A stretch of DNA of 64,000 nucleotides from Dictyostelium firmibasis (Eukaryota; Evosea; Eumycetozoa; Dictyosteliales; Dictyosteliaceae), in assembly GCA_036169595.1 (NCBI GenBank), contig CM069765.1, positions 4,086,001 to 4,150,000 of the forward strand, given 5' to 3'. The first letter of the stretch is position 1, and the number at the start of each line of letters is the position of its first letter. Made by a program: the position numbers and the translations under genes. Shown here piece after piece: positions 983-11,168 of this stretch. Below the pieces are notes generated by a model that made no database searches, had not been told where the DNA came from, and was given only the letters and a program-made list of their open reading frames with translations.

Positions 983-3115
983 ATGAAAATTCTTTTTTTA
1001 TTTTTCATATTTTATTTTATTTCTAAATCTTTTGGAAACAATATCCCAGCACCTAAAGGTAAATAATATATTTAAATTAATAATAGATTTTACTTTTATC
1101 TAATATTTTTAATATTAAATTTAGATTTTAAATGTTCAAAGGAATCATTAATTTATACCTATGGTAGTGGTGATGCTTATTTTTCAAAGTGGTCATTTAC
1201 TGATTCTAACTATGATTTACCGTTTGATTGTTTGAATGATAGTCGTAGTGTAACATGTACTGCTGAAATGAATGGGGAGAATGCAAAAATGCTACACGGG
1301 AGCATATCAACTTGTGTGATTGATAGCAACGGTGCGTTAATTTGTGAGTCTATCAGTCTTTCAAAAAAATATTATCCAAATCCAATAATTGAAGGTGAAT
1401 TTAAACCTCTTACAAAAGGTGGTCAAACTTCTTTGAAAGGTTATTATTTAGCGTTTGGAATTTCCTCATTTTTTACAATTCTTCCAGATACTAAGGTAAA
1501 TTTCTTGGGGTATATGTTAGACCCATCATTTGATGCAACCAACATAATAATCAATTACCAAGGTGGTTGTGGTCTAAAGACATTACAATGGCCAAATGGT
1601 TTCAATTTTACATTCAATCATTCAAATCCAATTATAAATAATGCTTCAAGTGATAATAGATCTTTAATTGTAACTGGTTCAAATTTCTGTAATAATTCTA
1701 ATTATGTAAATATTTTTATTGATAGCATTCAAGTCGATAAATTAAACATAATATCAATTGATCATGAATTATTTGAAGTAAAATACAATCAACAGTATTG
1801 CAAATCAATTGTATTAAATATTGTATCTGGTGATTTAGATTCTAATAAATTTCAATTCGATTATAAACCATTACCATTAAAAATCAACAGTATTCCAAAA
1901 TCAAAAGGTGGTTCAATAATAATTACTGGAGAAAGATTATCATCACAGATAAACAACTCTTTAGTTATTGTAAATATTGGACAAAATGAATGTAAACAGG
2001 TAATATCATCAAAGAATGAAATAACATGTAATTTAGATTCAATAACAAATGGTAGTATCAGTAATAATTTACAAGTTAATATTTCAATTAATGGTATTGT
2101 AAATGATAATAATTTATTATTTTCATTCGATGTACCATTTATTTCAGATTTTATACTTCCTCAAGGTGAAGTTAAATTAATTGGAGATTGTTTAGGTACA
2201 TTGCAATCTACTCAAGTTTATATTGATGATATTCTACAATCAAATTTAACCATATCAATAAATGATAAACAAACAACATTATCATTTACACCATTGAATC
2301 AAATTAAAAAATCAAAATTATATTTAATTGTAAATGGTACAAAATCAAATGCAGTAGATATTGATTCATCGTTTTATGTTAAGAGTATACCATCATCACC
2401 ATCAGTAATTGGTCAAATAGTAAACTATACACTTTATAATATAAATCCATCAAACTATAATAGTTTACCAACGATAATATTAAAAGATAATAGTACAATC
2501 AAAGGTATTGATATTAGTAACTCAGTTGAATATTCAACACATTCATACTCATTCCAAATTCCAAAAGGTTGTGGAAGAAATGAAATTACAATTTCAATTG
2601 GTAATCAAACAAGTCGTACCGAATTCTATTATGAACAACCAATTATTAGAAGTTGTTCAACAAATGATAATCAACTTATTCATTGTCTTGGTAATTTTAC
2701 AAATTATTTAAATTATTATGAAGATGATCAAATTAAAATAATATTTTTAAACTCAAGTAAATATAATTATTTAGAAAGTAATTTACTCGATTTTAAATTT
2801 GATTCATTCTCATTTCAATTAAACAAACAATTTACATCAAATCAAATCTATTTAAATGTTTGTAATCAACTTTTACCAATTACCGATATTGAATTTACTC
2901 AAACCCCACAGGTAACTAAAATTAATACAATTGAACCAATTTTAAATGATTCAAGTAAACATGAAAATAATCAAACAAATAACGAAAGTATTGGCTCAAT
3001 TGGTGAAGTGGTATCAGAAAAAGATCAAATCCAAAGTAATGCAGAAAAGAATAATTTTAATATTATTTTAATTTTTATTTTTTTAATTATAGAATATTGT
3101 GCGAATTTAATATAA
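983..3115 (+). CDS. Tgr-like IPT/TIG-domain surface protein, copy 1 (short form)
   Basis: Two exons, 983-1058 and 1125-3115, joined by a 66-nt intron with GTAAAT and TTTAG ends; the product is 688 residues. Exon 1 encodes a signal peptide beginning [12 protein letters not shown]. The ectodomain is rich in Asn and N-glycosylation sequons and contains IPT/TIG-like immunoglobulin-fold repeats, seen in strings such as [11 protein letters not shown] followed by a Cys-containing strand and ITC. It ends in a hydrophobic stretch, [11 protein letters not shown], then EYCANLI, with no cytoplasmic tail. This could be a GPI-anchor signal or a very short membrane anchor. Organisation matches the Dictyostelium Tgr (transmembrane, IPT, IG, E-set, repeat) family, whose best-known members TgrB1 and TgrC1 act in cell adhesion and allorecognition; which Tgr gene this is cannot be told. 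The nucleotide sequence is nearly identical to copy 2, with no indels in the coding part, and to copy 3 up to its residue ~530. Confidence 0.8.
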
Positions 3116-8189: not shown

Positions 8190-11168
8190 ATGAAAATTCT
8201 TTTTTTATTTTTCATATTTTATTTTATTTCTAAATCTTTTGGAAACAATATCCCAGCACCTAAAGGTAAATAATATATTTAAATTAATAATAGATTTTAC
8301 TTTTATCTAATATTTTTAATATTAAATTTAGATTTTAAATGTTCAAAGGAATCATTAATTTATACCTATGGTAGTGGTGATGCTTATTTTTCAAAGTGGT
8401 CATTTACTGATTCTAACTATGATTTACCGTTTGATTGTTTGAATGATAGTCGTAGTGTAACATGTACTGCTGAAATGAATGGGGAGAATGCAAAAATGCT
8501 ACACGGGAGCATATCAACTTGTGTGATTGATAGCAACGGTGAATTAATTTGTAAATTTATAAATCTTATAACAAACTATTATCCAAATCCAATAATTGAA
8601 GGTGAATTTAAACCTCTTACAAAAGGTGGTCAAACTTCTTTGAAAGGTTATTATTTAGCGTTTGGAATTTCCTCATTTTTTACAATTCTTCCAGATACTA
8701 AGGTAAATTTCTTGGGGTATATATTAGACCCATCATTTGATGCAACCAACATAATAATCAATTACCAAGGTGGTTGTGGTCCAAAGACATTACAATGGCC
8801 AAATGGTTTCAATTTTACATTCAATCATTCAAATCCAATTATAAATAATGCTTCAAGTGATAATAGATCTTTAATTGTAACTGGTTCAAATTTCTGTAAT
8901 AATTCTAATTATGTAAATATTTTTATTGATAGCATTCAAGTCGATAAATTAAACATAATATCAATTGATCATGAATTATTTGAAGTAAAATACAATCAAC
9001 AGTATTGCAAATCAATTGTATTAAATATTGTATCTGGTGATTTAGATTCTAATAAATTTCAATTCGATTATAAACCATTACCATTAAAAATCAACAGTAT
9101 TCCAAGATCAAAAGGTGGTTCAATAATAATTACTGGAGAAAGATTATCATCACAGATAAACAACTCTTTAGTTATTGTAAATATTGGACAAAATGAATGT
9201 AAACAAGTAATATCTTCAAAGAATGAAATAACATGTAATTTAGATTCAATAACAAATGGTAGTATCAGTAATAATTTACAAGTTAATATTTCAATTAATG
9301 GTATTGTAAATGATAATAATTTATTATTTTCATTCGATGTACCATTCATTTCAGATTTTATACTTCCTCAAGGTGAAGTTAAATTAATTGGAGATTGTTT
9401 AGGTACATTGCAATCTACTCAAGTTTATATTGATGATACTCTACAATCAAATTTAACAATATCAATAAATGATAAACAAACAACATTATCATTTACACCA
9501 TTGAATCAAATTAAAAAATCAAAATTATATTTAATAGTAAATGGTACAAAATCAAATGTAGTAGATATTGATTCATCATTTTATGTTAAGAGTATACCAT
9601 CATCACCATCAGTAATTGGTCAAATAGTAAATTATACACTTTACAATATAAATCCATCAAACTATAATAGTTTACCAACGATAATATTAAAAGATAATAG
9701 TACAATCAAAGGTATTGATATTAAAAACTCATTTGAATATTCAACACATTCATACTCATTCCAAATTCCAAAAGGTTGTGGAAGAAATGAAATTTCAATT
9801 TCAATTGGTAATCAAACAAGTCGTACCGAATTCTATTATGAACAACCAATTATTACAAGCTGTTCAATAAGATCTGATCAAATGATTTATTGTCTTGGTA
9901 ATTTTACAAACTATTTAAATTATTATGAAAATGGTAATATTAAAATCCAATTTTCAAATAGAATAATTATTGATGATATACCAAAAAAGCCAATAATTTT
10001 TGAAAATAATTACTTCTTGTTCCCATTGAAACCAGAATATGGATCAAGTGAAATCTCATTGATAGTTTGTAATGAAAACTCAAGAAGTCTAAAAATTGAT
10101 ATATCACCATCTCTTTCTTATTTAAACAAATCACCTATGTTCAACTCAACAGGTGGTCAAATAATAGTAAATGGACAAAATTTTATACCTAGAACCGCTG
10201 AAAATACATCTGTATATTGTTTTTCTAATAATCAATATTACAATTGTTTATTTTTAAATTATACGTCAATTTCGTGCAATCTTCAAATACTTGGACCATT
10301 CAATCAAACTTGTCAGGTAGAATTCAACAATAAAGAAATAAATAACAACATTACAATTTCTTTTTATCCTCCATTGGTATCTAACTCAACGATGATTTCA
10401 AATTCATCGATTGGTGGTATAATAACAATTTTTGGTAATGAATTTTATAATGAAATTGATGAAATCTCAGTTGGTAATAGTATATGTTCAAATATTACTT
10501 TTATTAATTCATCAAGTGTTTCTTGTCTTGTTGAACCTTTAATTATTAATAGTAATCAAACAATACAACAAAACCAATATGTTAATATTACAATCAACGG
10601 AAAAAGTGGTGGTAATTATTTAATGATTTATTTTCAAAATCCAAATACACCTGATCAAGGTAATAAATCTACAGAAAATAATGGTAAAAATATTTCAACA
10701 GATGGAAATAATAATGATGATGATAAAAGAAGTATTATACTAAGAAAGAAATGGATTTTAGCTATAATATTAATTGGAGGTGTTTTTATATTGGTTGGTC
10801 TTACTACATTTTTATTGATTAAAAATAAAAGAAAACCATCAGTTATATACATGAAAAACACCATAGTGAGTGGAGCAAAGAAAGGAGCATTGGGCATAAA
10901 ACAAATTAGATATCATTTTGATTTGAAAAATTTTAAAAAAACAACGAATATTCAAGATACTGATGAATCCATTAGAATAGGTGCTGCTGCATTTAGAGAG
11001 GTTCCAATATCACCTTTTTTGAATGTATCATCTCCACCATCCCAATCATCAGAACAGTCCTTGCCTCAACCTCCATCACCTCCACAACCACAATTATCTC
11101 CAAATCAAATACAAAAATTACCTGATTATGATCTTTCTACCAATGATGTTCCATCCAGTTCATCATAA
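8190..11168 (+). CDS. Tgr-like IPT/TIG-domain transmembrane protein, copy 3 (long form)
   Basis: Two exons, 8190-8265 and 8332-11168; 970 residues. The first ~530 residues (signal peptide, intron position, IPT/TIG-like ectodomain) are nearly identical to copies 1 and 2. At about nucleotide 9855 the identity falls abruptly to weak similarity. Beyond that this copy has two further IPT-like units, recognisable by [11 protein letters not shown] and [11 protein letters not shown] followed by Cys-containing strands. It then has a transmembrane helix at about residues 833-856 ([10 protein letters not shown] then [13 protein letters not shown]) and a cytoplasmic tail of about 114 residues ending in a Pro/Ser-rich segment. 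This is the arrangement expected of a full-length type I Tgr protein. It is probably the parental form, with copies 1 and 2 carrying a different 3' end, but the reverse is not excluded. The exact Tgr name cannot be assigned from sequence alone. Confidence 0.85.

Follow-up and report, generated by a model that had tools for sequence, protein, structure and literature searches.

A TgrO-like tandem array of Dictyostelium firmibasis with homogenised outer domains and two distinct 3' ends

Three consecutive genes, here W1, W2 and W3 (copies 1, 2 and 3), lie in the window, the 64,000-nucleotide stretch of DNA that was analysed. They are putative TgrO-like IPT/TIG surface-protein genes, named after a Pfam model, and fall into a short (S) and a long (L) type. 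Five further copies (D1 to D5) form a sister array at C1:4235657-4253766, about 150 kb downstream of the triplet, in a segmental duplication that starts at about C1:4080498, left of the window. Neither the S/L split nor the sister array, which lies outside the window, had been mentioned in the sequence-only reading of this DNA. All analyses rest on one assembled genome. The features of the triplet are the following.

1..982, + strand: left flank, within the segmental duplication common to the sister array
983..3115, + strand: W1, S type, 688 aa; exon 1 983-1058, intron 1059-1124, exon 2 1125-3115
1335..1369 (W1), 4905-4939 (W2), 8542-8576 (W3), + strand: patch 1, directly ahead of the first Ig_TgrO1 domain
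1498..1558 (W1), 5068-5128 (W2), 8705-8765 (W3), + strand: patch 2, within the first Ig_TgrO1 domain
2648..3115 (W1), 6218-6685 (W2), + strand: S-type 3' end, 155 codons and stop, distinct from the L type
3116..4552, + strand: spacer W1-W2, belonging to the repeat unit; 26-bp (GT)n tract at 4270
4553..6685, + strand: W2, S type, 688 aa, with Ig_TgrO1 and TIG domains; exon 1 4553-4628, intron 4629-4694, exon 2 4695-6685
6686..8189, + strand: spacer W2-W3; 20-bp (GT)n tract at 7855
8190..11168, + strand: W3, L type, 970 aa; exon 1 8190-8265, intron 8266-8331, exon 2 8332-11168
9855..11168, + strand: L-type 3' end, 99.4% identical to the 3' end of D5

In all three genes a 66-bp GT-AG intron separates the 76-bp exon 1 from exon 2, and the start codons at 983, 4553 and 8190 confirm the reported spacing of 3570 and 3637 bp. 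W1 encodes a signal peptide (assigned by eye), Ig_TgrO1 and TIG domains, a stalk and a C-terminal hydrophobic GPI-like tail. Judged by eye, the C-terminus of W1 and W2 is a hydrophobic stretch without a cytoplasmic domain, and W3 appears to have an additional extracellular part, one hydrophobic membrane segment and a cytoplasmic tail. Pfam scans, covering W1, W2, W3 and the flanking kinase gene, gave 95.4, 101.6 and 93.8 bits, respectively, for the TgrO1-like Ig domain (PF24612, cut-off 27.9), and 29.0, 27.3 and 52.8 bits for the IPT/TIG domain (PF01833, cut-off 20.9), where W1 and W3 were queried from an internal ATG and W2 as exon 2. No solved structure matched W3 by sequence at E<=1, and an AlphaFold model of W1 (exon 2, with the three window copies) was discarded at a mean pLDDT of 34.

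The order of copies is S-S-L in the window and S-S-S-S-L in the sister array. Copies are mostly >95% identical, and the arrays, whose 3' ends are unique, are unequal in copy number and in the length of their spacers (1437-1938 bp). Five of the six S copies are intact; the sixth, D4, carries a nonsense codon at position 492. Spacer W1-W2 is 97.6% identical to spacer W2-W3, and the sister-array spacer D4-D5 is 98.4% identical to the former and 99.0% to the latter. Five (GT)n tracts of at least 12 bp occur in 214 kb, all upstream of array genes. They were considered as triggers of exchange and rejected, since the tracts are copies of each other and W1, D2 and D4 have none, so that their position is no independent evidence.

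In 120-column windows over the first 533 codons, identity within the triplet is 96-100% away from the patches, in line with the earlier claim of a common signal peptide, intron and ectodomain of about 530 residues, and 87-99% in the two patch windows. The crossing pattern described for the patches is also present: W2 equals W3 at nearly all differing sites of patch 1, and W1 equals W3 at nearly all those of patch 2, one site deviating in each. It had been taken to mean exchange of pieces, which three copies are insufficient to establish, because they have one unrooted tree only and the pattern could equally reflect bursts of change in W1 at patch 1 and in W2 at patch 2. The recurrence of the patch alleles in the five sister-array copies turns it into evidence for exchange, which is strongly supported with eight copies. 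In patch 1, W1 has class a, common to D1 and D3, and W2 and W3 have class b, common to D5. In the 3' half of patch 2, the W1/W3 version is also found in D3, and the W2 version in D1, D2, D4 and D5. At alignment columns 854, 856 and 861, W2 groups with D5, and W3 with W1 and D1-D4. By the authors' own classing of the site table there are seven patch combinations among the eight copies, so that the reshuffling of a small stock of alleles is visible. Searching the genome at the DNA level for the patch region found the eight copies and two relatives at 70%, and no patch donor elsewhere.

Amino-acid divergence is by far greatest in the two patches, and synonymous divergence is raised there as well (pS 0.21 and 0.24, vs 0.05 in the ectodomain from codon 173 onwards). 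There is no support for positive selection in the patches, the N/S ratio not exceeding 1; codons 108-143, between the patches, show very few differences, with a nominal pN/pS of 1.21. The constraint ratio between codon 173 and the junction is 0.25 (seven copies). The proposal of an engine for diversity in cell-cell recognition is therefore supported in part only: a small stock of alleles is reshuffled, but most of the gene is homogenised and the N/S ratio of the patches is not above 1. For the most part exchange homogenises, and diversity is confined to two short patches without dN>dS.

Mosaic structure among the eight copies is evident in an alignment of 1667 ungapped columns before the junction, 84 of them informative. 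In a PHI-type test none of 2000 shuffles matched the observed clustering of compatible sites at any of three window sizes (z about -10 to -11). Significance was retained after linked sites of the same pattern had been collapsed to 47 (p=0.0002-0.0018), and when both patches were also taken out (30 sites, p=0.0012-0.0076). The four-gamete lower bound is 17 events, provided that no site mutated twice. In 3SEQ-type runs tests on the triplet (5000 permutations, uncorrected), W3 was a mosaic at p=0.0002 and 0.0024 and W1 at p=0.0006; the values for W2 were 0.08 and 0.27. Of 15 three-sequence tests (five triplets, each member in turn as child), 9 had an uncorrected p<0.01 in one direction or both, and the other 6 in neither. 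Of 28 pairs, only 3 had a global p<0.05 in the pairwise fragment test. The authors wrote the scripts for the PHI-, 3SEQ- and fragment-type tests, which assume exchangeable sites.

One consistent tree for all segments, the finding that the sequence-only reading had named as speaking against exchange, was not obtained. Trees of the eight copies conflict: five gene segments, whose limits were picked after the site table was seen, rejected 22 of 25 trees of other segments or of the whole gene (AU test, p<0.05). The patch-1 segment rejected all five of its trees at p<1.4e-7, and the whole-gene tree was rejected by three of the five segments only. Exchange of pieces among the copies, probably by gene conversion or unequal crossing over, is therefore strongly supported. 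Gene conversion, on the one hand, and unequal crossing over plus allelic recombination, on the other, fit the data equally well.

The likeness of S and L ends at the junction. The final 155 residues of W1 and W2 are unlike W3, and pS between W1 and W3 rises 12-fold, from 0.033 across 533 codons to 0.41 in the next 97. When P1, a relative, and the outgroups O6 and O4 were used in quartets, all groupings except W1 with W3 were rejected for the ectodomain (AU p<3e-8). The domain after the junction does not favour W1 with W3, at a marginal AU p=0.053; accelerated change adds to age in this domain, because the S branch is very long. A quartet with C2L, a distant outgroup, resolved neither segment. 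Homogenisation affects the outer domain, and the S and L ends remain distinct. Substitution counts in the S tails (N 15 and S 11 over 381:84 sites, p=0.004) indicate that these tails are under constraint.

Exchange between the two arrays is supported by their tails and spacers, and has probably occurred. The D4 tail differs from that of W1 at 1 of 84 synonymous sites, and the D1 tail at 8 of 84; the spacer identities are given above. L tails (W3, D5) have a pS of 0.019 vs 0.076 for the neighbouring kinase gene, which is also duplicated (Fisher p=0.0005, or p=0.06 when the kinase is limited to its C-terminal part).

The best explanation, with a probability of roughly 0.87, is a TgrO-like tandem array that evolves in concert by repeated, junction-limited exchange, its S/L pair having been amplified and segmentally duplicated. 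The starting state would be an S copy with only a hydrophobic tail, followed by an L copy with membrane segment and cytoplasmic tail. The repeat unit, an S copy and its spacer, may have been amplified by unequal crossing over to S-S-L, and the segmental duplication would then have placed a further array, at present S-S-S-S-L, about 150 kb away; this order of events is the presumed one. Exchange within and between arrays would keep the upstream spacer, signal peptide, intron and first ~530 residues near-identical in S and L, and would shift the two short variable patches among copies. It would halt at a fixed junction, because of which S and L retain different 3' ends. Gene conversion is the suggested process, in preference to one in which allelic recombination within the population also takes part.

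A single duplication and subsequent drift, without exchange but with positive selection acting in bursts on W1 (patch 1) and W2 (patch 2), accounts for the three-copy pattern on its own and for the concentration of amino-acid divergence in the patches. It is nevertheless highly improbable, given the recurrence of patch alleles in the sister array in conflicting combinations, the AU rejection of one tree for all segments, the PHI-type results that hold without the patches, the raised synonymous differences and N/S not above 1 in the patches, and the jump of pS at the S/L junction. Hardly more credible is an artefact of assembly or polishing, in which repeats were collapsed or blended and short reads polished onto the wrong copy. 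The D. firmibasis assembly was made with Flye, Medaka and long-read rounds, then four short-read rounds (PMC11193728), and polishing of this kind could blur short tracts in copies so alike. However, the same source reports 199x mean long-read coverage and zero undetermined bases (PMC11193728), the arrays differ in copy number, spacer length and 3' ends, and blending would tend to erase differences, not make allele classes common to distant copies.

The patches may instead be population alleles spread by sexual allelic recombination, with unequal crossing over for copy number and little ectopic gene conversion. Their pS far exceeds that of the rest, as old population alleles would, and the DNA search found no donor in this genome; yet S and L copies have alleles in common (the three columns named above), so that exchange between non-allelic genes is needed, and this explanation is a possible but doubtful one. 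That the S copies are decaying truncated pseudogenes, sequence donors at most, is unlikely. The D4 nonsense codon speaks for it, and truncated tgrBs are common in the family, many partial tgrB genes having been proposed as decaying pseudogenes (PMC12324515, in part). Against it, the intact S copies have one common constrained tail, and the short/long layout recurs in another TgrO-like lineage, although a stop is present in one of its four short copies.

The arrays of that lineage (C2:4399-4416 kb and C2:4304-4313 kb) are S-S-S-L and S-L; like those on C1, they have short-tail copies first and a single long-tail copy last. Their junction lies at the membrane segment, whereas on C1 it lies in an outer domain. 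One short and one long C2 copy are 97.2% identical in the ectodomain and 65.8% in the TM and start of the tail. Near-identical outer domains with different membrane modules are thus found in W1-W3 and in the C2 arrays, and according to the tests and trees the likeness between paired S and L genes is kept through exchange. By contrast, all five copies of an array at C6:1177-1220 kb are long-tailed.

Piece-swapping is already known in the tgr family, and the S/L arrangement is what is added here. The tgrB1/tgrC1 allorecognition locus of Dictyostelium, as far as described in the available part of PMC12324515, resembles the C1 arrays: its genes encode IPT/TIG surface proteins and have been duplicated locally, recombination breakpoints mark mosaic genes, and partial copies stand beside full ones. 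The C1 arrays differ in belonging to a TgrO-like subfamily at another locus, in lying head-to-tail on one strand rather than as divergent pairs, and in that S and L have one ectodomain in common. TgrC1 is the ligand of the receptor TgrB1 (PMC6889452), and the functions of the TgrA, H, I and O proteins are stated as unknown (PMC12324515). No description of the short/long arrangement was found in the Dictyostelium tgr papers that were consulted, among them part of PMC12324515, and no literature on Dictyostelium tgrO1 by name.

S copies might present the same binding face as L minus the signalling tail and act as ligand or decoy, with L as receptor. Tentatively, TgrO-like arrays could be paired recognition systems in which one signalling copy is combined with several copies that lack the tail and are GPI-anchored or shed, with binding domains matched by junction-limited ectopic exchange, so that a new patch allele from any copy can reach both ligand and receptor. 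If true, this would explain how specificity changes in a ligand-receptor pair without loss of match; how both partners among the amoeba recognition genes change and yet stay compatible is a question raised in PMC12324515 (in part). Tail-less and tailed copies with one homogenised outer domain offer a concrete, testable route to matched change, and some of the tgr genes labelled 'truncated' may form a constrained class, so that not all of them would be debris. In the available part of PMC2832619, mammalian CEACAM paired receptors, some of them GPI-anchored, are likewise described with similar outer domains maintained by gene conversion and recombination and with differing membrane/cytoplasmic modules; they belong to an unrelated family and organism. 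In silent-cassette antigenic variation there is one expressed copy with silent, incomplete donors. The frames of W1 and W2 are intact, and each of the two has a start, an intron and an upstream spacer of its own, which would speak against this model.

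Three TgrO-like genes, W1, W2 and W3 in order of position, lie in the window (bare coordinates are window positions). The genome searched for their relatives comprised 31,455,843 bp in 12 contigs, the largest of 9,412,997 bp; C1, C2, C5 and C6 are contigs of this genome, and the window lies on C1.

Start 983: W1, 76-bp exon, 66-bp intron and second exon, 688 aa
Start 4553: W2, 76-bp exon, 66-bp intron and second exon, 688 aa
Start 8190: W3, 76-bp exon, 66-bp intron and second exon, 970 aa

All three have a TgrO1-like Ig domain and a TIG domain (Pfam). As judged by eye, without a predictor, W1 and W2 end in a hydrophobic tail followed by nothing resembling a cytoplasmic domain (short type, S, with GPI-like tail), and W3 has a membrane segment and a cytoplasmic tail (long type, L). 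When the window's first 14 kb was compared by BLAST with the surrounding 214 kb, five further copies, D1–D5, were found at C1:4235657–4253766 in the same orientation as the window genes, together with a relic on the minus strand near C1 4165–4166 kb. D1–D4 are short and D5 is long, and seven of the eight copies are open, D4 having a nonsense codon at position 492. Both arrays are part of one segmental duplication. Its left part, which carries a protein-kinase gene, begins at C1 ~4080498 for the window array and at ~4229478 for the D array. The left flanks are 94.2% identical (5986 aligned bases, 64 gaps), and the likeness stops just beyond the 3' end of the L gene.

All six intergenic spacers have two copies each of a degenerate ~375-bp unit (motif count), those of the first spacer (3570–4279) being ~76% alike. 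All five (GT)n tracts of at least 12 bp in the 214 kb sit upstream of array genes (window 4270 and 7855; C1:4235309, 4243121 and 4250470), and a 22-base version occurs six times genome-wide, three of them at these arrays.

The sequence-only reading proposed patchwork identity among the window copies, produced by exchange of pieces, and the patchwork is borne out in the eight copies. Upstream of the S/L junction, the point at about residue 533 where S and L 3' ends part, 1667 ungapped columns contain 130 variable sites, of which 84 are informative. In a PHI-type test, agreement between adjacent sites is far above that in shuffled data (0/2000 shuffles reach the observed value, whichever of the three window sizes is used), also when linked sites of equal pattern are merged (47 sites, p=0.0002–0.0018) and when two short variable patches are dropped as well (30 sites, p=0.0012–0.0076). 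The four-gamete minimum is 17 events, provided that no site changed twice. Pair and triplet tests are weaker (global p<0.05 in 3 of 28 pairs; uncorrected p<0.01 in 9 of 15 three-sequence tests). No single tree serves all parts of the gene: five segments, with limits set with the site table in view, give mutually contradictory trees, which AU tests reject in 22 of 25 comparisons, the exceptions being the patch-2 and whole-gene trees for segment 1–350 and the whole-gene tree for segment 611–1100 (p=0.052). IQ-TREE excepted, these tests were custom scripts. Exchange of pieces is the well-supported part of the proposed mechanism.

Patch 2 (W1 1498–1558) lies within the first Ig_TgrO1 domain (residues 91–165 of W2 exon 2) and patch 1 (W1 1335–1369) immediately before it. 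Patch 1 has three allele classes (W1/D1/D3, W2/W3/D5 and D2/D4); the 5' half of patch 2 mostly splits W from D copies and its 3' half separates W1/W3/D3 from W2/D1/D2/D4/D5, making seven combinations among eight copies by our own classing. In the patches pN is 0.16 and 0.15 and pS 0.21 and 0.24; from codon 173 to the ectodomain end pN is 0.012 and pS 0.051. With each change counted once in six copies (D3 and D4 omitted), the N/S ratios of the patches are 0.87 and 0.76. Since both pN and pS are raised and neither ratio exceeds 1, the patches look like older tracts retained or imported through exchange rather than products of a recent burst of positive selection. A DNA search with the patch region matched the eight array copies and, at 70%, two relatives, and revealed no donor elsewhere in the genome.

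S and L copies are nearly identical through residue 533 and then diverge sharply. Between W1 and W3, pS is 0.033 upstream of the junction and 0.41 downstream, and this 12-fold synonymous-site difference inside one gene rules out neutral drift after a single duplication. P1, a long relative at C1:5417344, matches W1 and W3 equally well in the ectodomain (68% identity); its next domain is 68–71% identical to W3 and 42–45% to W1 (ranges from two alignments). When O6 and O4 serve as outgroups, the ectodomain places W1 with W3 and rejects every alternative; in the next domain this grouping is not favoured, though it is not formally rejected either (AU p=0.053). Since the S branch of that domain is long (1.25), accelerated change is probably a factor besides age.

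Exchange between the arrays, over ~150 kb, is likely but not secure, as judged from three comparisons. In the tail, D4 differs from W1 at one synonymous site and D1 at eight (D4 and D1 were the copies counted); the spacer ahead of W3 is 99.0% like that ahead of D5; and L tails differ at 5/270 synonymous sites (0.019) vs 39/515 (0.076) in the duplicated kinase gene (Fisher p=0.0005, or p=0.06 with the less repetitive C-terminal part of the kinase alone).

The genome has further TIG arrays, and among these tails were also compared in three TgrO-like ones, two on C2 and one on C6. Both C2 arrays begin with short-tail copies (three in one, a single one in the other) and end with one long-tail copy, and the short copy of the smaller array contains a stop. 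One C2 short and one long copy share 97.2% nucleotide identity across the ectodomain and 65.8% from the membrane segment into the start of the tail, and two short copies have identical tails across 135 bases. In the C6 array all five copies are long-tailed, one with a stop. Because the L end is kept by the last copy alone, the S(n)-L layout may be a simple outcome of unequal crossing over from a starting S-L pair. At C5:2717766–2718473 (+) an open 241-aa frame shares 88% identity with W3 across its membrane and cytoplasmic region (exon 2 residues 702–944), with no ectodomain match listed alongside.

Recombination, duplication and partial copies have been published for the tgrB/C locus, with a D. 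firmibasis comparison (PMC12324515), and mosaicism itself is therefore expected. The tgrAHIO genes are described in the same source as numerous, dynamic and of unknown function. A short/long array with a common homogenised ectodomain was not found in the parts consulted of the published Dictyostelium tgr literature searched. By analogy with TgrC1, the ligand of TgrB1 (PMC6889452), and with CEACAM paired receptors (PMC2832619), S copies might serve as ligands or decoys for L. The main alternative is that they are sequence donors or debris; across the six S copies the tails show conservation, with a constraint ratio of 0.30 (p=0.004), or of 0.28 (p=0.0025) without D4, the copy with the nonsense codon.

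Elsewhere in the window, a 2749-aa open frame (39564–47813, +) has no Pfam match at E 0.001. A 2067-aa frame (17783–23986, +) encodes a poly-HAMP hybrid histidine kinase, in which a tandem series of about ten HAMP domains, encoded by 10.6 copies of a 276-bp DNA repeat (18659–21583), precedes HisKA, HATPase and response-regulator domains.
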